Part shown: positions 34,696 to 49,685 of the stretch, in pieces
Position numbering within the stretch: the stretch's first letter is position 1
Layout: every line of letters begins with the position of its first letter
Assembly: GCA_029881035.1 (NCBI GenBank)
Contig: JAOUNI010000015.1
Span: 1-49,685, forward strand
Source of the DNA: Gammaproteobacteria bacterium
GTDB taxonomy: Bacteria > Pseudomonadota > Gammaproteobacteria > SZUA-229
Direction of reading: 5' to 3'
DNA length: 49,685 nucleotides
Notes under the pieces: model-generated
The model's database searches: none
Told to the model about the DNA's origin: nothing
The model's input: only the letters and a program-made list of their open reading frames with translations
Position numbers and translations under genes: made by a program

Positions 34696-37110
34696 ATGAA
34701 GTTTAAGTATGTTGCACCAGCAATATTAATGGGCTTGTCAGCCTTAATTACGGGTTGCAGTGGAGGTGGAGGTGATAGTGCTGTAGCTGCACCGAAGACC
34801 TTAAGTGGAACCGCTGCAGCTGGAGCACCTATCATTGGCCAGGTCACTGTTAAAGGTGCTCTTGGTAATACCAAATCAGCATTGATAGAAGCCAATGGTA
34901 ACTATAATGTAGATGTTTCGGGCTTAACTGCTCCTTACAGATTGCGCGCTGAAGGCACGGTCGGTGGTCGTACCTATAGACTGCATTCCTATGCAGAAGC
35001 TGCGGATGTCGGTGGCAATGTAAATATTACGCCGTTTACTGATCTGATCGTCGCTAATGCGGCATCAATGATTGCAGAACAATATTTCAATTCGAATACA
35101 CCGGTAGATCTGGATCCCGTTGAAGTAGAAGCGCAGGAAGCAGCACTGCAGGCCAAGTTACAAAATGTATTTACTACCTTGGGTGTAGATGCAGCCATTA
35201 ATCTATTAAATTCAACTTTTAGTGCTGACCATACAGGGCTTGATGCCGCACTGGATATTGTGAATGTTGAAGTGGATCCATTGCTTAATGTAGCGACTAT
35301 TACCAACCTGATAGAAAATACATCTATTACAGATAGTATTGTTGATACAGCCGATAATACAACCACATTGACAGTGACTGATCCTGCGGCATTAACCACA
35401 GCGGTGAGTGATACTCAGGCCATTGCCAATATCTTCACCGGCATGACAACCGCATTTGCCAGTGGTCTGCCGACTCAGGTAGCCATTCAGGACTACTTTG
35501 CAAGCACCTTCTCCATGTCGGATATGAACAAGGCCCTGTTCCTGACAGATGTCACTACTGATCCCAGCATGATTGGCTTCACGCTTAGTAACGTGGTGGT
35601 GAAAAATCTGGATTCCTCATTAGGTACTGCTGAAGTGGTGTTCAATGCGGGTTTCAATGGCTATGTTGAGCCCGATCCAATCAAGTGGTATGTGGTTAAA
35701 GACGCTACTCTCGGCTGGCAGTTTAATGGTGATCAGCGCATTGTAGAAGCCTATTTCAATTTCCATTGTAATGATTATGATGGTGCAGGTGGCTGGACTG
35801 GCTCTTGTGGTATCAATACTCAGTTCTGGGATAACGACACGACCAATAACGGAACAGGTGGTACATTTATCGCATCGGGTACCGTGAGAATCATTGATGG
35901 TACTGACGGCGTAACTGAAAAAGCTATTGTCTATCTTGGTACACCGGCAGGTTCGGCACCGGGTGATGTGCAGGTTTACAATGAATCTATGACTAACTAC
36001 TCGGGTGACTGGAAAGGTTTTGGTACCGCTATAGGCGAAATTGATCCCAGCATTTTCGCAGTGGGTGACATCATTGAATATAATGCCTACACTCAGGCAC
36101 TGGATATTAGCATCCCAACTGCACCTGCAATCGCACCGGGAGTTGTGCCTGTGGCAACCTATACAGATGCCCTGTTATTTGTCCCATCGAGTGTGGGTAA
36201 ATATCCAACTGCAACTTTAGCTGCGCAAACAGCTATCAATAACTTCACCATGGGTAGCAATCTGACCGTTGCCTGGAACCTGGTAGCAGGCACCCGTAAC
36301 GATGAAGTAAAGGTTATGCTCAGTGACAGCATGGGTAATTCAATCGAAACCTGGATTAAAAACACTGGTTCTACCACGAACAGTATGACCTTTGCATCAA
36401 CTGAACTGGATGCAACAGCTGCATCCGGTGCAGGTCTTGACCCTAATGCAACGACATACGAACTTCGTGTAAGAATCTACACCACTGATCAAATTACCGG
36501 TCAGCAGCACTCAAGAGATTATACCGCCAATATTCCTGGTCCAGCTGCGACTGGTGGCGGTGGTGGCGGTGGTTCATCACTGGTCTGTGGTTATGAGTCT
36601 GGCTGGAATGATTTAGCTGATGCTGGCCTGGGTGCACCAATTAATCCTAATAGTTTTGCAGAGTATGAAACTGTATTGACTGATTGTGGTACTGCACAGG
36701 CATTTACGGTCGCAGATGTAGCTGGTTCTGTTTTGGTTGACTCAGGTGAAACTACAACATTTAATGACTCTGCCAATGCTGGCACATTGGCGGATCCAAA
36801 AACTGGTGTTTTTGATGATGGTGCAGGATTTGTTATTGATTTTGAATGGTATGTGGAAGACGCTACCTGTTCAGGTTGTACACACAGTTATGTAGTTGTG
36901 TATACAGATTCCACAATGGATGTTGATCTGCCAGCTGGTTTCTCTCTCAGGGAAACAAGTGCTCTAATGAGTGTGACAGGAACACCTGGTATTGCGGGTG
37001 CTGTTTATTCGTTTAATAAATATTCAGAACAGTCAAATTACGGCGATATGATGCGCTCAACTGGAACTGATGGCGAAATCTGGTCATCACCAGGTAATGT
37101 ATTACAGTAA
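34696..37110 (+). CDS. Large surface or periplasmic lipoprotein of unknown function
   Basis: 804 residues. The lipobox LITGC (C21) is followed by a Gly/Ser/Asp spacer. A carboxypeptidase-regulatory-like beta-sandwich repeat follows (about 35-115: LSGTAAAGAPIIGQVTVKG, GNYNVDVSGL). The middle is Asp/Thr-rich (about 120-400). Two further beta-rich parts come next, separated by a glycine run in ATGGGGGGGSSLVCGYESG (about 617-635). The final part holds a cysteine pair in EDATCSGCTHSY. The composition (few Lys/Arg, many Asp/Thr/Ser/Ala) is that of exported marine-type surface proteins. I do not recognise a catalytic motif. GAAGGAG lies before the ATG, and a good terminator follows the stop. It begins 101 bases after the propeller lipoprotein and may be co-transcribed. 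Confidence 0.75.
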   Translation: MKFKYVAPAILMGLSALITGCSGGGGDSAVAAPKTLSGTAAAGAPIIGQVTVKGALGNTKSALIEANGNYNVDVSGLTAPYRLRAEGTVGGRTYRLHSYAEAADVGGNVNITPFTDLIVANAASMIAEQYFNSNTPVDLDPVEVEAQEAALQAKLQNVFTTLGVDAAINLLNSTFSADHTGLDAALDIVNVEVDPLLNVATITNLIENTSITDSIVDTADNTTTLTVTDPAALTTAVSDTQAIANIFTGMTTAFASGLPTQVAIQDYFASTFSMSDMNKALFLTDVTTDPSMIGFTLSNVVVKNLDSSLGTAEVVFNAGFNGYVEPDPIKWYVVKDATLGWQFNGDQRIVEAYFNFHCNDYDGAGGWTGSCGINTQFWDNDTTNNGTGGTFIASGTVRIIDGTDGVTEKAIVYLGTPAGSAPGDVQVYNESMTNYSGDWKGFGTAIGEIDPSIFAVGDIIEYNAYTQALDISIPTAPAIAPGVVPVATYTDALLFVPSSVGKYPTATLAAQTAINNFTMGSNLTVAWNLVAGTRNDEVKVMLSDSMGNSIETWIKNTGSTTNSMTFASTELDATAASGAGLDPNATTYELRVRIYTTDQITGQQHSRDYTANIPGPAATGGGGGGGSSLVCGYESGWNDLADAGLGAPINPNSFAEYETVLTDCGTAQAFTVADVAGSVLVDSGETTTFNDSANAGTLADPKTGVFDDGAGFVIDFEWYVEDATCSGCTHSYVVVYTDSTMDVDLPAGFSLRETSALMSVTGTPGIAGAVYSFNKYSEQSNYGDMMRSTGTDGEIWSSPGNVLQ

Positions 37111-40490: not shown

Positions 40491-41363
40491 ATGATAACAA
40501 TAAAAAAAGCCGTATTTCCTGTTGCCGGACTGGGTACTCGATTTTTACCAGCGACTAAAGCCGTCGCCAAGGAGATGTTGACTATCGTTGACAAACCTTT
40601 GATTCAATATGCAGCAGAAGAAGCGGAAAAAGCCGGTATTGATACACTGATTTTTGTTGTTGGTCGAACTAAAAACTCCATTATTGACCATTTTGATAAG
40701 GCTTATGAGCTGGAAAGTGAATTAGCACTTCGCAACAAGGATGAATTACTGAAAATAGTACAAGACACTGTACCTACCGGTGTCAGTTGTGTTTTTGTTC
40801 GTCAACCAGAAGCTCTAGGACTTGGTCATGCGGTATTGTGTGCAGAAGCGATTGTCGGCAATGAACCATTTGCAGTTATTCTGCCGGATGATCTGATCGA
40901 TAATGAAGGTGATAATTGTATACAGCAAATGATTGCTGTTTATGACAAGTACAAAGCCTCGGTGATTGGGACTCAAACCATCGACATATCAGAAAGTGAT
41001 AAATACGGCATGGTTGCCGGGCCAAAAATTGAAGAGCGTTTATCCATGGTTGATGAAATCATTGAAAAACCGGCACCTGCTGAAGCGCCATCTGATCAGG
41101 CCATTGTCGGACGTTACATTCTCACTCCTGCTATTTTTGACATATTGAAAACCACTGTGCGTGGTGCTGGCGGTGAAATTCAGTTGACCGATGGTATTGC
41201 TGCGCTACGCAAGCGAGAAGAGGTTTATGCCTATAGCTTTGAAGGTAAACGTTATGATTGTGGCAGTAAGATCGGTTATCTGGAAGCTACTGTAGACTTT
41301 GCGCTCAAGCATGAAGAGTTAGCAGATGAATTTAGACAATTCTTAAAACAGTTTAATGTTTAA
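40491..41363 (+). CDS. galU: UTP-glucose-1-phosphate uridylyltransferase
   Basis: 290 residues. The nucleotide-binding N-terminus has FPVAGLGTRFLPATKAVAKEML. Other conserved segments are QPEALGLGHAVLCAE, FAVILPDDLIDN, VGRYILTPAIFDIL and GGEIQLTDGIAAL. It makes UDP-glucose for surface polysaccharides and galactose metabolism. The start is preceded by AAGGATAA. A weak TTCTTT/AAAGAA hairpin near 41395-41410 after the stop is the only terminator candidate. Confidence 0.96.
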   Translation: MITIKKAVFPVAGLGTRFLPATKAVAKEMLTIVDKPLIQYAAEEAEKAGIDTLIFVVGRTKNSIIDHFDKAYELESELALRNKDELLKIVQDTVPTGVSCVFVRQPEALGLGHAVLCAEAIVGNEPFAVILPDDLIDNEGDNCIQQMIAVYDKYKASVIGTQTIDISESDKYGMVAGPKIEERLSMVDEIIEKPAPAEAPSDQAIVGRYILTPAIFDILKTTVRGAGGEIQLTDGIAALRKREEVYAYSFEGKRYDCGSKIGYLEATVDFALKHEELADEFRQFLKQFNV

Positions 41364-41692: not shown

Positions 41693-42229
41693 ATGAAATA
41701 TATTATTGGTGCATTAGCGATGCTTGTTCTGGTCGCGGTTATTGCCTTGACACAGGCACAAAATCTGATGTTTAACATCACCCCGAGTCCATATGGGGTT
41801 GAAGAAACAGCGGCTCGCATACAGGAAAATATCCAGCGTATGGAAGGGCGAGGCTGGGCGCTTTCGGGTCTGAGAAATCCAGCCGCAGCAGTGGCAGCGA
41901 GCGGTTCAAATGTACCTCCCGTTCTGCTGGTTGAAGCCTGCAGTACAAAATACTCAGGGCCGTTGCTGAAAATAGAAAACAGCCGTATTTACTCTATTCT
42001 GATGCCATGTACCATCACGGTATACAAGAATGATGATGGTTCAACCTCAATCGGCACCATGAACGCCGGCCTGATGGGCTGGTTGTTTGGTATCAGTGAC
42101 ATTATGGATGAAGTTTTTGCTGATCAGCAGGCGTTTATTACCTTTGATCCAAGCCGGCCTGCTCCTCCGTTGATTAAAGGGCGTCCTGGTGGCGGTGGTG
42201 GTGATGGCAAACCTGAAGCAGGTTGCTAA
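41693..42229 (+). CDS. DUF302-family membrane-anchored or exported protein
   Basis: 178 residues. An N-terminal hydrophobic segment (about 2-22, IIGALAMLVLVAVIALTQAQ) is a signal peptide or anchor. The following domain resembles DUF302 (VEETAARIQENIQRMEGRGWAL, then LLVEACSTKYSGPLLK, IYSILMPCTITVYKND, GWLFGISDIMDEVF). It ends in an unusual tail of Gly and Pro finishing with Cys (GRPGGGGGDGKPEAGC). DUF302 proteins are often found beside sulfur-oxidation and redox genes, but their role is unsettled. It is first in the octaheme operon. A strong AGGAG site supports the start. Confidence 0.75.
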   Translation: MKYIIGALAMLVLVAVIALTQAQNLMFNITPSPYGVEETAARIQENIQRMEGRGWALSGLRNPAAAVAASGSNVPPVLLVEACSTKYSGPLLKIENSRIYSILMPCTITVYKNDDGSTSIGTMNAGLMGWLFGISDIMDEVFADQQAFITFDPSRPAPPLIKGRPGGGGGDGKPEAGC

Positions 42230-42285
42230 CGGCTAATCGAATACAAACAATAATCAGCGAAAGCTGTTATTCGAGGAAATATGTT

Positions 42286-43959
42286 ATGAATATACCAGCA
42301 AAGAAAATTTACCGAGGATTGCTCCTGATCGGTTGTTTTCTGGCGTCAAGTGTCAGTGCCAATGTTGCCCCCGCAGAACCTGCGGCGGCAGCTGCTGCAT
42401 CGACCGCACCTGCAGTGGTGATGGTCGAAGAAACTGAAGCCAGAAAAAGCACATCAACAGCGGATCACTCCAAGTTTGAAGAACTGAAGAAGAATTTTAA
42501 AAACGGCCCTGAGGTTACAAAAGCCTGTCTCACCTGTCATACCGAGGCAGCTCAGCAGGTACACAGTACCAAGCACTGGACCTGGGAGTTTTTAAATCCA
42601 GCCACCAAACAGAAATTGGGTAAGAAAAATATTATCAATAATTTCTGTACCTCAGTGACATCGAATCAGACTTTCTGTTCTGCCTGTCATGTGGGCTACG
42701 GCTGGAGTGATGATAAATTCGACTTCACTTCAGAAAATAATGTCGACTGCGTGGTTTGTCATGACACTACCGGCAAGTACAAGAAGCTGCCGGGACTGTC
42801 TGGTCATCCCAATTACGAAGTCATGGAGTGGCCTCCTCATTCCGGCAAGTTCCGTGAGCCGACAGATCTGAAAACGATTGCACAAAAAGTCGGTAAAACC
42901 AGCCGTGCAACCTGTGGTGCCTGTCACTTCTACGGTGGTGGTGGTGATGCGGTCAAACATGGTGACCTCGACAGTTCGTTGAAAGAGCCACAGAAATACC
43001 TCGACGTCCACATGGATGCCAAGGGCCTGGATTTCTCCTGTGGTAAATGCCATCTTAGTGATTCACATGAAGTGAGTGGTAGTCGTTATGCGCCTACTGC
43101 GGTTGATGATAACGGTGCGCTGATGCGTGGTGATAAAGGTGACAGAAATCCTACCACCTGTGTGGCCTGTCACGGTAAAGCACCACATCCTCCCGGTACT
43201 GCCGCAGTTGAAAAACTGAATTCGCACACCGACAAGATTGCCTGTCAGACCTGTCACATTCCTGCCTATGCACGTGGCAACAAGGCCACCAAGATGACCT
43301 GGGACTGGTCAACTGCCGGCAAGCTGGATGAAGAAGGCCATCGCATACAGAAACGTGGCAGCGACGGCAATGTTATCTATGACAGCAAGAAGGGTGATTT
43401 CACTTTCGAGCGTTACGTTATTCCTGAGTATGTCTGGTTCAACGGTGAAGTTAAGTTCACCCTGTTCGGCGACAAGGTTGATACTAACAATGTTGTGAAA
43501 ATCAACGAGTTTCAGGGTTCCGCAGGCGATCCGGATTCACGTATCTGGCCAGTAAAAACCTTCCGTGGCAAGCAGCCTTATGACGTTGGTAATGAAACCC
43601 TGGGTGTGTTCCATACTGCTGGTGGCGATGACTCAGCCTTCTGGGGTAACTATGACTGGGACAAAGCGATGGCATGGGGCATGAAAGCCATGGGTGTTGA
43701 ATACAGCGGCGAAATGGTTTTCGTTGAAACTGAAATGAGCTGGCCTATTACCCACATGGTCGCACCTAAGGAAGATGCCTTGAAGTGTGATCAGTGTCAT
43801 AGAGAAAATGGTCGTTTACAAAATATCGGTGGTGTATACATGCCCGGTACCAACAACACTCCAATGCTTGACTGGCTAGGTTATGCCGCTGCCCTGATGG
43901 CGCTGATTGGTGTATTAATTCACGGTGGCATTCGCTACTACATGAGTAAGAGAGGTTAA
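42286..43959 (+). CDS. Octaheme c-type cytochrome, tetrathionate reductase (OTR) family
   Basis: 557 residues from the ATG at 42286, chosen because GAGG precedes it and a normal signal peptide (about 1-25, ending VSA) follows. There are eight CxxCH heme sites, beginning at about C81, C131, C155, C210, C252, C292, C320 and C501. A long heme-free stretch lies between the seventh and eighth, and a C-terminal membrane helix (about 530-548) ends the protein. This is the layout of the Shewanella OTR family, which reduces tetrathionate, nitrite and hydroxylamine in vitro; the physiological substrate is not known. The protein should face the periplasm, tethered by its C-terminus. A cytochrome b gene follows after 4 bases and probably feeds it electrons from quinol. 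Confidence 0.9.
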   Translation: MNIPAKKIYRGLLLIGCFLASSVSANVAPAEPAAAAAASTAPAVVMVEETEARKSTSTADHSKFEELKKNFKNGPEVTKACLTCHTEAAQQVHSTKHWTWEFLNPATKQKLGKKNIINNFCTSVTSNQTFCSACHVGYGWSDDKFDFTSENNVDCVVCHDTTGKYKKLPGLSGHPNYEVMEWPPHSGKFREPTDLKTIAQKVGKTSRATCGACHFYGGGGDAVKHGDLDSSLKEPQKYLDVHMDAKGLDFSCGKCHLSDSHEVSGSRYAPTAVDDNGALMRGDKGDRNPTTCVACHGKAPHPPGTAAVEKLNSHTDKIACQTCHIPAYARGNKATKMTWDWSTAGKLDEEGHRIQKRGSDGNVIYDSKKGDFTFERYVIPEYVWFNGEVKFTLFGDKVDTNNVVKINEFQGSAGDPDSRIWPVKTFRGKQPYDVGNETLGVFHTAGGDDSAFWGNYDWDKAMAWGMKAMGVEYSGEMVFVETEMSWPITHMVAPKEDALKCDQCHRENGRLQNIGGVYMPGTNNTPMLDWLGYAAALMALIGVLIHGGIRYYMSKRG

Positions 43960-43963
43960 GGCA

Positions 43964-44560
43964 ATGAAAAGAATCTATATTTTCAAGCGCTTTGAACGCT
44001 TCTGGCATTGGTCCCAGGCCGCGTTGATCATCACCATGTTGGTCACAGGTTTTGAGGTGCATGGGTCCTATGATCTGCTGGGCTTCAAAACCGCAGTAAC
44101 CACGCATACGACTGCGGCCTGGTCACTGGTCTGGTTGTGGGTATTTGCCATCTTCTGGCACTTCACCACGGGTGAGTGGAAGCAATACATTCCAACTACC
44201 GATAAGGTGGCAGCAATGTTCCGTTATTACCTGACTGGCATCTTCACCGATGCACCACATCCGTTCAAACAGACGAGGTTGAGCAAACATAATCCTTTGC
44301 AAAAACTGGCCTATCTGTTTGTCCTGGCTGTGATCAATCCATTGATCTGGATCACCGGCTGGTTCTACCTGTTCTACAACGACTGGGCCGCCTGGGGTGT
44401 TGATTTCCTCAATCTTGAATACGTCGCCTTCTTCCATGTTGTCGCCGCATTCATGATGCTGATCTTCGTCATCGCTCATATTTACCTTGGCACAGCGGGA
44501 CACACCCCGACTGCGCACATCAAAGCGATGATTACGGGTTGGGAAGAAACTGAGGATTGA
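43964..44560 (+). CDS. Cytochrome b561-like membrane subunit, electron donor to the octaheme cytochrome
   Basis: 198 residues with four membrane helices (about 18-38, 50-72, 113-138, 152-178). Histidines in FERFWHWSQAAL, VTTHTTAAWS, IFWHFTTGEW, YVAFFHVVAAF and VIAHIYLGTAGHT are suitable for ligating b-type hemes. It resembles the b subunits of Ni-Fe hydrogenase, formate dehydrogenase and thiosulfate reductase. Placed 4 bases after the octaheme gene, it most likely passes quinol electrons to that cytochrome. The next gene overlaps its stop by 4 bases. Confidence 0.88.
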   Translation: MKRIYIFKRFERFWHWSQAALIITMLVTGFEVHGSYDLLGFKTAVTTHTTAAWSLVWLWVFAIFWHFTTGEWKQYIPTTDKVAAMFRYYLTGIFTDAPHPFKQTRLSKHNPLQKLAYLFVLAVINPLIWITGWFYLFYNDWAAWGVDFLNLEYVAFFHVVAAFMMLIFVIAHIYLGTAGHTPTAHIKAMITGWEETED

Positions 44561-45480
44561 TTATCACTAGTCGTTCTACAAAGTGGTGGAGCCCGGGCCT
44601 GTCCCGGGCTTTCGCCATTATGATTATGCTGTTTTTGTCGGCACTGGCACAGGCAGAAACCAGCATCGTAATTCCACATGTTGGTGAAAGAGCCAGAGAG
44701 CAATTTCAGCAATATCAGTATTCGCCAAAACATAAGGCTTTTGCGATTGCACCTGGTGGTGCTTGGTACTGGTTGACCGAACTCGAGAGTGAAGAACAGG
44801 CGGAACAACAGGTGTTACAAAACTGCCAGGAAAACACTCAGCAAAAATGCGTTCTCTATGCGCTTGATAACCGCATTGTTTTTGACGCAGATAAATGGCC
44901 CAGCCTTTGGGGGCCTTATGCTGATGCGGCCACCGCGAGCAAGGCGACCGAAGGTGTTAATGTTGGACAGCGCTTTCCCGATTTAACCTGGCGAGATAAC
45001 AAGGATAAACAGATTCCACTGTCGTCTCTGAAAGGCAAAATCACTTTTTTGCACTTCTGGGGTTCATGGTGTCCTCCCTGCATGCGCGAGTTCCCCTCGC
45101 TCAATAAACTGCAGGCGGAAATGAAAAAACGTTATCCCGATGATGTGGCGATGGTCTTGATGCAATTGCGCGAGCCTTTTGAAAAATCAATCGAATGGGC
45201 GCAGCAATATGGCTTTTCTGGTATGCCGTTGTACGACTCGGGTGTTAAGGATAGTGAAACTACAACGCTAATGCTGAAAGATGGCAGGCAGGTGAAGGAC
45301 AGGGAGATTGCGCGTGTTTTTCCCAGTACCTATGTGCTCGACCGAAATGGACTGGTACTATTTTCACACTATGGTCCAGTGGGTGACTGGCTGGACTATG
45401 TTGCTTTTTTTGATCATGCAGTAAAAACTGGCGCTAGTGCATCGACTGGCACAAAATATAGGGGTAAGCCAGGCAGTTGA
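44557..45480 (+). CDS. Exported TlpA/thioredoxin-like protein with an N-terminal DUF4189-like region
   Basis: 307 residues if the TTG at 44557, overlapping the previous stop, is the start. The N-terminus (basic to residue 17, then AFAIMIMLFLSALAQA) forms a complete signal peptide, which supports it. A start at the ATG at 44620 would leave the signal without a basic region. Residues about 55-112 (KAFAIAPGGAWYWLTELESE) resemble DUF4189-like domains. Residues about 133-290 are a TlpA-type thioredoxin fold with redox pair C172/C175 in WGSWCPPCMREFP. In this operon it probably keeps heme-binding or substrate cysteines reduced in the periplasm. A perfect hairpin lies inside its first codons (44590-44610). 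Confidence 0.85.
   Translation: MIITSRSTKWWSPGLSRAFAIMIMLFLSALAQAETSIVIPHVGERAREQFQQYQYSPKHKAFAIAPGGAWYWLTELESEEQAEQQVLQNCQENTQQKCVLYALDNRIVFDADKWPSLWGPYADAATASKATEGVNVGQRFPDLTWRDNKDKQIPLSSLKGKITFLHFWGSWCPPCMREFPSLNKLQAEMKKRYPDDVAMVLMQLREPFEKSIEWAQQYGFSGMPLYDSGVKDSETTTLMLKDGRQVKDREIARVFPSTYVLDRNGLVLFSHYGPVGDWLDYVAFFDHAVKTGASASTGTKYRGKPGS
44590..44610. repeat. GC-rich inverted repeat inside the first codons of the TlpA-like gene
   Basis: The arms AGCCCGGG (44590-44597) and CCCGGGCT (44603-44610) enclose a CCTGT loop. The 8-bp stem is much GC-richer than its surroundings and has no T run after it. It lies between the two possible starts of the gene, so it may be an mRNA processing or stabilising hairpin between cistrons. 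Confidence 0.7.
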
Positions 45481-45511
45481 TCAGAATGAAAAGACGAACG
45501 GAGTGATGCAA

Positions 45512-46519
45512 ATGCAAAAAATATTTGAATTCATTACGGGGCTTTTTTCGGACAGGCAGATCCACTTAACTGACCTGGATACAGGTTACAGTCTTGCAGA
45601 AGCCATTGATCAGGTTGTCGATGGTATCGATACAAAATTGCGCCTTGTGCCGGGTTACCGGAAAAAGTTACAGAAAGAAGTTGCGGGTTCATTGGAATAC
45701 ATCAGTCAGCTGGTTGATCAAATCCCGGGGCCGATCAATGTCAGTCGTAAAAACTTCGTCAGTGACCCAGAGGTTCGTGCTTACTTTTCCACCACCGACA
45801 CATTGCAGAACATTTTTAGCTGTGGCAACGAGTTGCAAACATTTTTCGACCAGCCGGAAAATGCGGCACTCGATGTCTGCTGTGCACTGTTATGTGCTAA
45901 TAAAGAAGAGAAAAAAATTATCGGACTGGCACTTGAGCATGAAGTTTTACAGCGCGATGTGGTGCAAACGGCAATTAGTTTTTCAGATTATAAAGTATTG
46001 TCGCCAGCCATTGATGCCAATGGAGTGCGTAGTGGTATCAAGAAATGTATTTTTGGTGGTCTGGTGACTTACGCATTACAGCAAATCGCTAATATTAAAA
46101 TTGAACGCCGTGATCTGATACACAAACGTCGTATTCTTTATGCGCAGCTCCGGTCAAGACAGACTGCTGGCAATGGCCTGAGTACCATGCTTGCGCAGGC
46201 TCATCTTGATTCAGAACAACATGCCAACCTCGCTGTCGAGCTTAAGGAAGCAGAAACCCGGCTGGAGAATATAACGGGTGATAGAGATGTGTTTTCATTT
46301 TATCTGGAAGAAATCAGAAAAGTGCTAGCGCAGCCTGAAAAGTTTATTCAGATCAATACAGTCTGTTTTCATCTTAATGACATGGGAATCAAACTCGAAG
46401 GTGAAGCGGCACAATCTGTTAATGCTGTCTGTTTTGCAGAGCTCGAAATTGTCAACGTGATGAAACGTGTCGTGGCGGTCATTTGTTATAACAAAAATGA
46501 TATCAACTGTGGAGACTAA
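45512..46519 (+). CDS. Unrecognised cytoplasmic protein, last gene of the octaheme operon
   Basis: 335 residues from the ATG at 45512, which has GGAG eight bases upstream; the frame is open from 45437 but the earlier codons overlap the TlpA-like gene. No signal peptide or membrane helix. It looks mainly alpha-helical, with a probable coiled-coil part (about 205-275: RRDLIHKRRILYAQLRSRQ, ELKEAETRLENI). Several cysteines are present, including DVCCALLCANKEE, but no known metal motif. I do not recognise the family. The 31-base gap after the TlpA-like gene and the terminator after it make it part of the same operon. Helical bundle chaperones or regulators are possible, but this is not supported by a motif. 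Confidence 0.65.
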   Translation: MQKIFEFITGLFSDRQIHLTDLDTGYSLAEAIDQVVDGIDTKLRLVPGYRKKLQKEVAGSLEYISQLVDQIPGPINVSRKNFVSDPEVRAYFSTTDTLQNIFSCGNELQTFFDQPENAALDVCCALLCANKEEKKIIGLALEHEVLQRDVVQTAISFSDYKVLSPAIDANGVRSGIKKCIFGGLVTYALQQIANIKIERRDLIHKRRILYAQLRSRQTAGNGLSTMLAQAHLDSEQHANLAVELKEAETRLENITGDRDVFSFYLEEIRKVLAQPEKFIQINTVCFHLNDMGIKLEGEAAQSVNAVCFAELEIVNVMKRVVAVICYNKNDINCGD

Positions 46520-46547: not shown

Positions 46548-46571
46548 AGTTAAAAATCGTGATTTTTAACT
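46548..46571. repeat. Perfect AT-rich inverted repeat
   Basis: The arms AGTTAAAAATC (46548-46558) and GATTTTTAACT (46561-46571) are separated by GT. It lies 28 bases after the last gene of the octaheme operon and just before the true terminator. It may be an operator or an additional 3' hairpin. Confidence 0.8.
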
Positions 46572-46582
46572 CGAATAGAAAT

Positions 46583-46612
46583 AAAAAGGCCAGCAAAAAT
46601 GCTGGCCTTTTT
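46583..46612 (+). terminator. Intrinsic terminator ending the octaheme cytochrome operon
   Basis: The stem is GGCCAGC (46588-46594) with GCTGGCC (46601-46607) and an AAAAAT loop, preceded by AAAAA and followed by TTTTT. It closes the transcript just before the tRNA-Asn fragment. Confidence 0.92.
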
Positions 46613-46618
46613 ATTGTA

Positions 46619-46666
46619 TGGCTCCTCGACCTGGGCTCGAACCAGGGACAAACGGATTAACAGTCC
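46619..46666 (-). pseudogene. 3' half of a tRNA-Asn(GTT) gene: probable attachment-site remnant
   Basis: Read on the minus strand, the 48 bases give the anticodon loop region GGACTGTTAATCC (anticodon GTT), the variable region, the T arm CCTGG-TTCGAGC-CCAGG, the 3' acceptor strand TCGAGGA, the discriminator G and an encoded CCA at 46621-46619. This closely follows E. coli tRNA-Asn. The 5' half is missing: upstream there is no TCCTCGA to pair with the acceptor strand and no D arm. Integrative elements that insert into tRNA genes leave exactly such 3' copies at their far end. Since the fragment points left, the element should lie to its right, with the complete tRNA-Asn at the other end, outside the window. 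Confidence 0.85.
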
Positions 46667-46752
46667 GACCTGCTGACTTATAGTCGAATTAAGTCATTGA
46701 TTATATTAGTGAAAGACGAAGAATTATAAGCGATTTTTCTATTCAGTTTTCC

Positions 46753-46939
46753 CGAACTCTCAAAATCCGAACGTATACCGAAAATCTTCTGGCATCGACC
46801 CCCCGAAATAGTGTCGAAATTGGGCATTCTCCATAGCTAGATTGCCAATCTCGACAATGAGTTACATCCGATCGAAACTGACCCGAACTCGAACATTTAC
46901 CGAAAACCTTTTTGAAGGCTGTCGCTGATCGAAGTCGAA
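46753..46939. repeat. Array of CGAA words, four pairs at 11-bp spacing
   Basis: CGAA occurs at 46753, 46768, 46779, 46804, 46815, 46873, 46884, 46890, 46901, 46930 and 46936. Four pairs have the form CGAA-N7-CGAA (46768/46779, 46804/46815, 46873/46884, 46890/46901). A larger diverged duplication is also visible: CCCGAACTC at 46751 and 46882, TACCGAAAA at 46776 and 46898, and GAAATAG further on. It looks like an array of protein-binding sites at the end of a mobile element. Confidence 0.7.
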
Positions 46940-46986
46940 ATAGAGTGGCCATTTGTGTGGCGCGGGTATGGGTCATGAGGGAATTT

Positions 46987-47008
46987 GGGTTTGGCTAGGG
47001 TTTGGCTA
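46987..47008. repeat. Two tandem copies of an 11-bp unit
   Basis: GGGTTTGGCTA is repeated exactly at 46987-46997 and 46998-47008, with a further GG after it. The unit length equals the spacing in the CGAA array just to its left. Confidence 0.85.
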
Positions 47009-47228
47009 GGATTTTCCTATGGCAATCCCTGCGGTGAACTCTATGCGCTAGGGGGGCTTGAGTAGTGAAACTCAACTTGGAAAGACGGTCGATAGTGGTC
47101 ATTTGTAATGTGGATACCTAAAAGGACATGAGAGTAATATCTCTAATCATGCAAATAAGCTGATTATCTGTTTTAATTTTATAGGATCCAAGTTGGGTAC
47201 CTCGTGAATAACATAATCCCCTCGTTAC

Positions 47229-48395
47229 TCATGATTGCTTGCTGGTGTCTATGATGCCGGCTGGGCCTGTAAGTGCACGCTGGATGAGATCAGCCTGACG
47301 TTTGACGCCCATTTTGCTGAAGCATGATTGCAATTGTGATCTCAGTGTATTCTTGCTGATATGCAGCATTTCCGAGATGCTGTCCAGCGTATTGCCCAGG
47401 CAGAGCAGGGTGGCCAGCCTCGCTTCAGATCGGGTCAGACCGTACAGTGATTGTATGCGTTCAGACGATAGTTCGAATGGCTGTTTATTGGTTGAAATCA
47501 GGACGAGTGCAGATTTTCGGCCAGTTGGGGTGTTGTATCGATCCTTGTTAATCGGCATGACGAGCACAGAGAGTATGTCGCCTGAAGGTATATGCTGATA
47601 GCGCATCGCGCCCCCACAAAGCGGTGAGCCAGGGTTAACCTCATGTGTCGCCGAGTAAATCAAGCATTGAAATTGTTTGTGCTCTGCAGGTGAATCTAAC
47701 TTAAGCCTGTTCCTGGCAATGCTCAGATAAGGCTTGTCAGTGATGAATGCCTCTGCGTTCGCATTCATGAAAAGTATGTTCTCCCGATCATCAACCAGTA
47801 ACAGCGGGCAATTCAGTTGATCGAGTGCGCTGTGTGAATTCGCTGTCTCGGCCCTGGAGTCACTGAGTCTGCCGATGATCTTCAGTGAACGTGAGATGTG
47901 CGGCTCCAGGTAGCGGAGAATGCTCAGGGCATCAGTGCTGAACTCGCCTCGTGCTTTGTCTCTATTTAGTGCCATATAGCAGACTGAGTTACTATCTAAG
48001 TGGATGAGCCCACCTATGCCGTAATGTAGCCCCATGGGCTTAATGTAATCGTTATAGTATTCGAGTTTTTGATATTCAACATAGGGAAGAAGGTGATGTG
48101 TGCATGAGAGAATGTTGTTGTTATCGAGAAAATTGTTTAGCCAGGGATCGATATGAATGAAATGCTGTAAGTAGCTTTCGATTCCTTCCAGGTTGCGGTT
48201 ATGTTGAAAATACGAGGTGACATGATTGGTGTTCTTGTCGATCACGCGGAAGAAGCCCTGTTCTGCGCCTAATTGTGCGGTGAGGTGTGCCAATGTCTCG
48301 TTCCACAGCGCCGGTTCAAGCGCAGAGTCGTAGATCTGCGTGATCAGGCCCTGAAGCTGATCTTGTGATATTGACAGTTTTCGCTGCGAGGTCAT
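47229..48395 (-). CDS. LuxR-type (GerE helix-turn-helix) transcriptional regulator
   Basis: 388 residues. The N-terminal two thirds contain a PAS-like sensor region (about 195-310, CPLLLVDDRENILFMNANAEAF) after a GAF-like part (about 15-170). The C-terminal DNA-binding domain (about 318-380) reads LTRSEARLATLLCLGNTLDSISEMLHISKNTLRSQLQSCFSKMGVKRQADLI in outline, the LuxR/GerE four-helix fold. It is not a response regulator (no receiver Asp), and the classical acyl-homoserine-lactone-binding pattern is not visible. Its ATG overlaps the stop of the hydrolase gene by 4 bases (ATGA), so both come from one transcript. A perfect palindrome lies upstream of that transcript. Confidence 0.88.
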   Translation of the reverse strand: MTSQRKLSISQDQLQGLITQIYDSALEPALWNETLAHLTAQLGAEQGFFRVIDKNTNHVTSYFQHNRNLEGIESYLQHFIHIDPWLNNFLDNNNILSCTHHLLPYVEYQKLEYYNDYIKPMGLHYGIGGLIHLDSNSVCYMALNRDKARGEFSTDALSILRYLEPHISRSLKIIGRLSDSRAETANSHSALDQLNCPLLLVDDRENILFMNANAEAFITDKPYLSIARNRLKLDSPAEHKQFQCLIYSATHEVNPGSPLCGGAMRYQHIPSGDILSVLVMPINKDRYNTPTGRKSALVLISTNKQPFELSSERIQSLYGLTRSEARLATLLCLGNTLDSISEMLHISKNTLRSQLQSCFSKMGVKRQADLIQRALTGPAGIIDTSKQS

Positions 48396-49237
48396 CTTGA
48401 TGACATCCTCGTTGTAATGTTTTCCAGTATTTGTCTCCAGTGCGAGAGAATAAAATAATGCCCCTGGTCAGCCAAGAAGTGTGTGTTGTCTGTGTGCAGT
48501 GACTCTGCCAGGTATTTCCCGATTTCAACGCCGATGTTCCTGTCCTTATTACCGTGCCAGAGTTCAACCTGGGCGTGGATATCTTTTAAGGTGAATGGCC
48601 AGGGCTGCACCGTATTTTTCAGGTCGAAGACCAATCCCATCGGCCCCTGCTTCAGTGCATATTCCAGGCTATCCAGGTAAGGCGTAAGTATGTTCGCATT
48701 GTTGAATATGGCCTGGTCTTCCTCTGGCATGGGTGCGCTTAACACGCTCCATGCAACATCTACTGATTCTGTCAGTGGTTTCAGTTGTTCAGTCACCGCA
48801 CCAATGTCTGTAGCCGCCAGATCGTACAGGGGTTTGAAATCGGGAGACAGGTGCGCCTGCATAGCAGGTGTGTCGTAATCGGCCAGGCCACCGACGATGG
48901 TAAGCCCGTCAACCCGGTCGCCAAGAAAATGGCTGCAGGCAAATGCATAGATGCTGCCAATAGAGTAGCCCAGTACATGGAACCGATCTATCTGCAAACC
49001 ATCTGCAAGGGTCGCTATTTTCTCTGCCCAGTCCCTGAGATTGCCCTGGGCACTGACGGGGGTATCACCGTAACCCGGTCGGTCCGGCGCAATGATGCGT
49101 AAACCCAGTTCCCTGGCTATTTCGTCAGCGGGTGCGATCTCCATTCCTGAACCGGGAGTACCATGCATGTAGATCATGGCAAGACCATCAGGGTCGCCAT
49201 AACCATGCCACGTGGGTAAGGTCGGCTCGCTACGCAT
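48392..49237 (-). CDS. Alpha/beta-fold hydrolase
   Basis: 281 residues, no signal peptide. The catalytic set is visible: oxyanion segment YMHGTPGSG, RPGYGDTP, nucleophile S92 in LGYSIGSIYAF, probable acid D232 in HGNKDRNIG, and H260 in DQGHYFILSHW. The fold includes esterases, lactonases and dehalogenases; the residues do not decide between them. It is translationally coupled to the LuxR-type regulator. Supplying or destroying the regulator's ligand is a possibility but is inferred only from the pairing. Confidence 0.88.
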   Translation of the reverse strand: MRSEPTLPTWHGYGDPDGLAMIYMHGTPGSGMEIAPADEIARELGLRIIAPDRPGYGDTPVSAQGNLRDWAEKIATLADGLQIDRFHVLGYSIGSIYAFACSHFLGDRVDGLTIVGGLADYDTPAMQAHLSPDFKPLYDLAATDIGAVTEQLKPLTESVDVAWSVLSAPMPEEDQAIFNNANILTPYLDSLEYALKQGPMGLVFDLKNTVQPWPFTLKDIHAQVELWHGNKDRNIGVEIGKYLAESLHTDNTHFLADQGHYFILSHWRQILENITTRMSSR

Positions 49238-49275
49238 AAGTTATCAGTTACCTGAGCTAGATTTTTTTATCATTT

Positions 49276-49293
49276 TTCATCCATATGGATGAA
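49276..49293. promoter_or_regulatory. Perfect 18-bp palindrome, candidate operator
   Basis: TTCATCCATATGGATGAA reads the same on both strands. It lies 39 bases before the hydrolase-LuxR operon and about 180-195 bases before the divergent secreted-protein gene. The size and symmetry suit a LuxR/GerE-type dimer site, so autoregulation is a natural guess. Confidence 0.65.
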
Positions 49294-49470
49294 GAAAGGT
49301 ATATGCCACCACAATAAAATCGCGAGTACAAGCGTTTTTTTAAGGGTATTGTTTATATTAGCAAGTTCTTATCGATCAAATTTGAAACGATGAGTTCGAT
49401 TCCAGTACAGGTATTAGCTGGGGCTGGCGAGTGTGAGAATAGTGGCCGTGTTTAGGAAGAGGTTATGTGT

Positions 49471-49685
49471 ATGAAATTTGCAGTGAGACTAACAATCTTT
49501 ATGGCTCTATTTCAAAGTGCTGGCAATGTGCTTGCGGAGAATAAATTGAGTGTTTATACCAAGCTCGATGGTGAAAAGATTACGTTCTCTGACGGCTCGG
49601 GCAATGTGAATCTCGGTTGCAGGGAAAGTTATTGTGCCAGTGTCGCAGGTAAGTACAGCCATCCGCATAATATCCAGCAGCATAA
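49471..49685 (+). CDS. Exported protein of unknown function, 3' end outside window
   Basis: The frame is open to the end of the window, with 71 complete codons. ATG at 49471 is chosen because GAGG precedes it by 8 bases; another in-frame ATG lies two codons earlier at 49465. A signal peptide is clear (MKFAVRLTIFMALFQSAGNVLA). The mature part begins ENKLSVYTKLDGEKITFSDG and has a cysteine pair in LGCRESYCAS. Too little is visible for a family call. It is divergent from the hydrolase-LuxR operon. Confidence 0.7.
   Translation, partial: MKFAVRLTIFMALFQSAGNVLAENKLSVYTKLDGEKITFSDGSGNVNLGCRESYCASVAGKYSHPHNIQQH

Follow-up and report, generated by a model that had tools for sequence, protein, structure and literature searches.

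We infer that positions 46619-46667, near the right end of the window, are the displaced half of a tRNA-Asn attachment site, probably left behind when DNA was inserted at a hotspot that lies between galU and tRNA-Asn and has grown as an additive, layered island. The window is the whole stretch of DNA that was analysed (49,685 nucleotides) and makes up all of contig C19 of genome G000, a 99-contig, 2.69-Mb draft that is listed as 98.4% complete. The features on which the argument rests are:

40491-41363, plus strand: galU, the last conserved backbone gene on the left (TIGR01099 above cut-off), syntenic in G002 and G003
41693-46519, plus strand: accessory operon encoding a DUF302 protein, an octahaem c-type cytochrome (TIGR04315), a cytochrome b561, a TlpA-like protein and gene X
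45506-46519, plus strand: gene X, the last gene of the operon, of no known family
46580-46615, plus strand: terminator stem-loop, a 16-bp perfect inverted repeat with a copy beside the intact tRNA-Asn on contig C56
46619-46667, minus strand: tRNA-Asn 3' fragment, 49/49 identical to the intact tRNA-Asn at C56:990-1065
46668-46688, minus strand: weak likeness to the tRNA 5' half (14/21 positions, with a 7-nt deletion)
46668-47228, no strand: repeat-rich non-coding stretch (shuffle test), the putative left end of the insertion
47229-48395, minus strand: LuxR-type transcriptional regulator (PF00196), putative cargo
48392-49237, minus strand: alpha/beta hydrolase (PF12697, PF00561), putative cargo by position
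49465-49685, plus strand: secreted-looking protein whose reading frame runs off the contig, putative cargo by position

Read on the minus strand, the fragment corresponds to positions 28-76 of tRNA-Asn(GTT), and the 49/49 match bears out that it holds just the 3' half of the gene together with the encoded CCA; its location was predicted correctly, whereas its end, earlier set one base short at 46666, lies at 46667. ARAGORN made zero complete tRNA calls in the window, and the Rfam tRNA model scored the fragment at 24.2 bits, under its 29-bit threshold. When the region was compared by blastn with its own genome, it matched C56:954-1038 (85 bp, 96% identity, E 1.9e-34), a stretch that takes in the terminator as well as the tRNA half, and since a match of this strength excludes chance, the fragment can be regarded, at the level of sequence, as confirmed to be a real piece of tRNA-Asn. 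Its break may be less clean than first described, because a weak likeness to the tRNA 5' half persists in 46668-46688 (p 0.0004 in the ungapped test, 0.03-0.05 in the gapped one).

The terminator and the repeat-rich stretch beside the fragment are also as originally described. The terminator on its left has a perfect 16-bp stem, with arms at 46580-46595 and 46600-46615, and the stretch on its right is repetitive above chance, as its repetitiveness was matched by none of 100 dinucleotide shuffles and by one of 51 other stretches of the same size; none of the sister loci compared has a match to 46668-47228. Between gene X and the terminator there is a second inverted repeat, also perfect, with 11-bp arms (46548-46571).

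The intact partner is found on C56, a contig of 8.1 kb, at positions 990-1065 of the minus strand. This contig carries X' (a second copy of gene X, truncated where the contig begins), a terminator and tRNA-Asn, followed by two genes that we take, from their sequence and from the general features of these families, to be aspC and uvrB. The C19 and C56 copies share 82 of 85 bases, with the tRNA half (49/49) and the terminator core identical and the three differences falling in the linker. Because uvrB is single copy in the genome, occurring only on C56, this contig most likely belongs to the genome as its flank and is not foreign. The last base of the window (49685) is also the last base of C19, and no other contig of G000 matches the end of either C19 or C56. 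Since synteny of the window with G002 and G003 extends as far as galU, and since G002 has the order galU-terminator-tRNA-Asn-aspC-uvrB, we read C19 and C56 as the flanks of a single locus that an insertion has split, a join made by synteny and not by sequence. The predicted intact tRNA-Asn is thus present in the same genome, and sister synteny places it to the right in the expected orientation. The synteny with G002 and G003 likewise implies that the fragment and the intact gene lie on the same chromosome; if the genes are ordered galU-tRNA-aspC, as they are in the sister species, the fragment lies downstream of the tRNA gene, both are on the minus strand, and the insert is between them. Together with the insert-free locus of G002 and the variable inserts and recurrent tRNA fragments of the family (see below), this gives good support to an insertion on the right side of the fragment, which would amount to at least ~4 kb (3.0 kb on C19 and 0.95 kb on C56, the middle being unassembled).

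The original prediction called for comparison with a relative that lacks the insert, and the sister species G002 is such a relative: there galU is followed by 18 bp, the terminator, tRNA-Asn, aspC and uvrB, so that only ~55 bp separate galU from the tRNA gene. The order galU-terminator-tRNA-Asn-aspC-uvrB is the conserved one, and galU itself is 85-86% identical in G002 and G003. Elsewhere in the family (our comparison is between species, with one genome per species) the galU-tRNA interval measures 0.7 kb in G008, 1.75 kb in G003, 2.6 kb in G012, 3.7 kb in G014, 7.5 kb in G018 and 13 kb in G029. Its contents, from ~0.05 to at least 13 kb of DNA with accessory genes, are unrelated among genomes. 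In G001 the interval is 23.6 kb and includes chemotaxis-type genes; this may be a rearrangement rather than an insert. On the basis of this comparison, the gap between galU and tRNA-Asn can be described as a hotspot of an ordinary kind, at which insertions have occurred repeatedly in this bacterial family. Within the otherwise syntenic backbone of the window, one long plus-strand reading frame (34696-37110) is without an equivalent in the stretches of G002 and G003 that were compared.

Partial tRNA-Asn genes are also found in relatives. G024 has a 3' fragment of 48 bases 6 kb from its intact tRNA, G026 has one of 46 bases whose intact partner is unassembled, G003 has a tRNA 3' end with a terminator 1.5 kb from the intact tRNA, and G004 has a short tRNA-Asn 3' remnant. 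The fragments of G000, G024 and G026 all begin in the anticodon arm, at about positions 28 to 32; among the crossover sublocations that have been described for tRNA islands is the anticodon loop (PMC4383910). Two smaller observations concern these loci. In G003, the 1.5-kb insert encodes a TehB-like methyltransferase and has a similar GGTTCCC...GGGG motif near each end (L097:7476 and 8853). In G004, a sequence beside the tRNA-Asn remnant (L060:228-342) resembles tRNA-Cys(GCA) and folds into a cloverleaf whose variable arm is long; neither ARAGORN nor Rfam at its gathering threshold called it.

On the left of the fragment, the operon that had been described as orderly is not stable backbone: inserted between galU and the terminator, it too is accessory DNA, is not at that place in G002 or G003, and is shared within the genus only with G004. 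Its octahaem cytochrome belongs to the tetrathionate-reductase family. Within the genus X and TlpA occur, besides G000, only in G004, where X lies upstream of the terminator and the tRNA-Asn remnant with one further small ORF between; the five-gene order recurs, more diverged and away from tRNA-Asn, in G025. Since the operon lies inside the hotspot and X and TlpA are so restricted, it probably represents the older of two layers of accessory DNA, with the LuxR side as the younger. A search for a second half-site (tRNA-Asn or terminator remnant) between galU and the operon gave nothing above shuffles. X and X' are copies of one gene, 80% identical in amino acids, at the two junctions, and therefore the locus is layered. 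Gene X matched no Pfam or PHROG family, its only homologues being distant plasmid ones at ~24-31% identity, and a structure prediction from two sequences reached a mean pLDDT of 34.

On the right of the fragment, the prediction that the LuxR gene is cargo gains support from its absence: no homologue was found at E <= 1e-15 in six same-genus genomes, and the best one elsewhere in the family has 27% identity. The hydrolase gene overlaps the LuxR gene by 4 bp, and profile searches of the secreted-looking protein gave no convincing family; by position alone, both the hydrolase and the secreted-looking protein are putative cargo as well.

The series of events that would account for this arrangement is as follows. 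The attP of an incoming element would have carried the 3' half of tRNA-Asn, and a crossover in the anticodon arm through a tyrosine integrase would have rebuilt the tRNA at the right end of the element, while the previous 3' half stayed behind at the left end. The LuxR gene, the hydrolase and the secreted-looking protein would then be the left end of the element, and X' with its terminator copy the right end; the left operon would be an earlier layer at the same hotspot, making this an accretion (additive) island, and the integrase would either lie in the unassembled middle or have been lost. There are points against this explanation. A simple single insertion does not predict X and X' at both junctions, the join between C19 and C56 rests on synteny, the bases just past the break keep some likeness to the tRNA 5' half, no half-site that could belong to the earlier layer was found between galU and the operon, and no integrase was found on C19, on C56 or within 20 kb of tRNA-Asn in the family genomes compared.

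As for the last point, a tyrosine integrase had been predicted beside the intact tRNA-Asn, and none turned up on C56 or in the 3 kb of C19 past the fragment. All four tyrosine recombinases of the genome are encoded elsewhere: two are XerC/XerD-like by size and score, one is an integron integrase (TIGR02249) and one is on a phage-like contig. In some 20 family genomes no integrase was found within 20 kb of tRNA-Asn, which is weak evidence of absence as many contigs are short; among the tRNA-Asn contigs of these genomes only those of G010 (41 kb away) and G012 (22 kb away) have one.

One may also consider a segmental duplication of X, terminator and tRNA-Asn, through unequal crossing-over or DNA from a related species, after which the left tRNA decayed from its 5' end; no integrase would be involved, and the genes between would have come by other routes. 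The presence of X beside the terminator at both junctions, the residual likeness to the tRNA 5' half past the break and the lack of a visible integrase all fit such a history. However, X and X' differ with a dS of ~1.27, about the divergence of orthologues from sister species (~1.3 for uvrB), and agree at only 54 of 103 fourfold sites (~52%), whereas the tRNA half, although non-functional, is identical at 49 of 49 positions, with the decay confined to the 5' half (Fisher p 1e-4). Because of this contrast, the half-site appears to have split from the working tRNA much later than X and X' separated. An element carrying X' beside its attP would explain the difference, which a single old segmental duplication would not, unless gene conversion refreshed the half-site. 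In addition, other genera of the family have tRNA-Asn fragments that begin at similar positions but have no X next to them. We thus consider duplication unlikely.

Another alternative is that the hotspot, family-wide, keeps gaining inserts bordered by tRNA 3' ends without an adjacent integrase, the DNA being moved in trans or otherwise, and that X is a recurring tRNA-proximal gene; this we regard as quite improbable. Mixed assembly, in which C56 or the right part of C19 would come from another binned strain or species, is very unlikely. The draft is in 99 contigs, and the divergence between X and X' is as large as that between orthologues from different species, but uvrB is found once, only on C56, the listed contamination is 0.23%, the C56 genes are about as related to the sister species as the backbone genes of the window are, and the fragment lies inside C19 whatever C56 is. 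Finally, a coincidental match or an unrelated structured RNA, which might be suspected as the Rfam tRNA model stays below threshold and leader and sRNA families score weakly, has a negligible chance of being correct, since the region agrees at 82 of 85 bases with the intact tRNA-Asn and its terminator, and the weak leader matches fall on the terminator.

Insertion at the tRNA gene, the reading that we favour, resembles several known systems. As in Islander-type tRNA islands (PMC4383910), an intact tRNA is accompanied by a displaced 3' fragment of the same orientation on the far side of the insert, the break is in the anticodon arm and accessory genes lie between. Islander-type islands are defined by a tyrosine integrase gene inside and a length of 2-200 kb (PMC4383910); here no integrase was found in the assembled parts, the insert measures at least ~4 kb with its middle unassembled, and copies of X are present at both junctions. 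With the additive fGI-2 at tRNA-Lys of Methylophilaceae (PMC10872708) the locus shares a single tRNA gene with inserts that vary among relatives, repeated tRNA 3' ends and layered growth at one site, but the repeats here are up to 49 bases long as against 20, species and not strains were compared, and only one open insert is seen in G000. The additive traits are nevertheless recognisable: the galU-tRNA interval ranges from ~55 bp to 13 kb with unrelated genes in eight genomes, to which G001 may be added unless it is rearranged there, and tRNA 3' ends lie at insert borders in G000, G003 and G024, with remnants in G026 and G004. Tycheposons, which combine a tRNA border with a tyrosine recombinase (tRNA-Met in PMC10872708), likewise have accessory genes bordered by a tRNA gene, but here the tRNA is tRNA-Asn and no tyrosine recombinase was found in the incomplete element. 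From this comparison, an additive island at a tRNA gene is the description that fits the locus best; its location in this lineage is new, while the phenomenon in general is well known. The original island reading is thus largely borne out, with changes to its left boundary and to the integrase.

For a gammaproteobacterial family known here from drafts, these results fix one half-site, both flanks and an insert-free relative for a galU/tRNA-Asn/aspC accretion hotspot. They also show that neither the octahaem-cytochrome operon nor the LuxR gene should be counted as core, both being better regarded as accessory. The point of interest is what moves DNA into a site that has no integrase seen beside it.

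Several candidates for the element or its source were rejected. The phage-like contig C35 (L140), which carries tail-type genes, a tyrosine integrase and a ParB-like gene, has no match to the tRNA-Asn region. A viral contig with an exact 49-bp match, considered as an attP, proved to be a phage tRNA array with an intact tRNA-Asn, and the plasmid and phage matches were to tRNA-Asn genes or were short, with no integrase in view. As a separate observation, contig C82 (L139:1-4488) carries the integron integrase (TIGR02249, 3493-4488) along with small ORFs that are set apart by attC-like repeats at 2031, 2502 and 2897, and is a chromosomal integron in the genome of the window.
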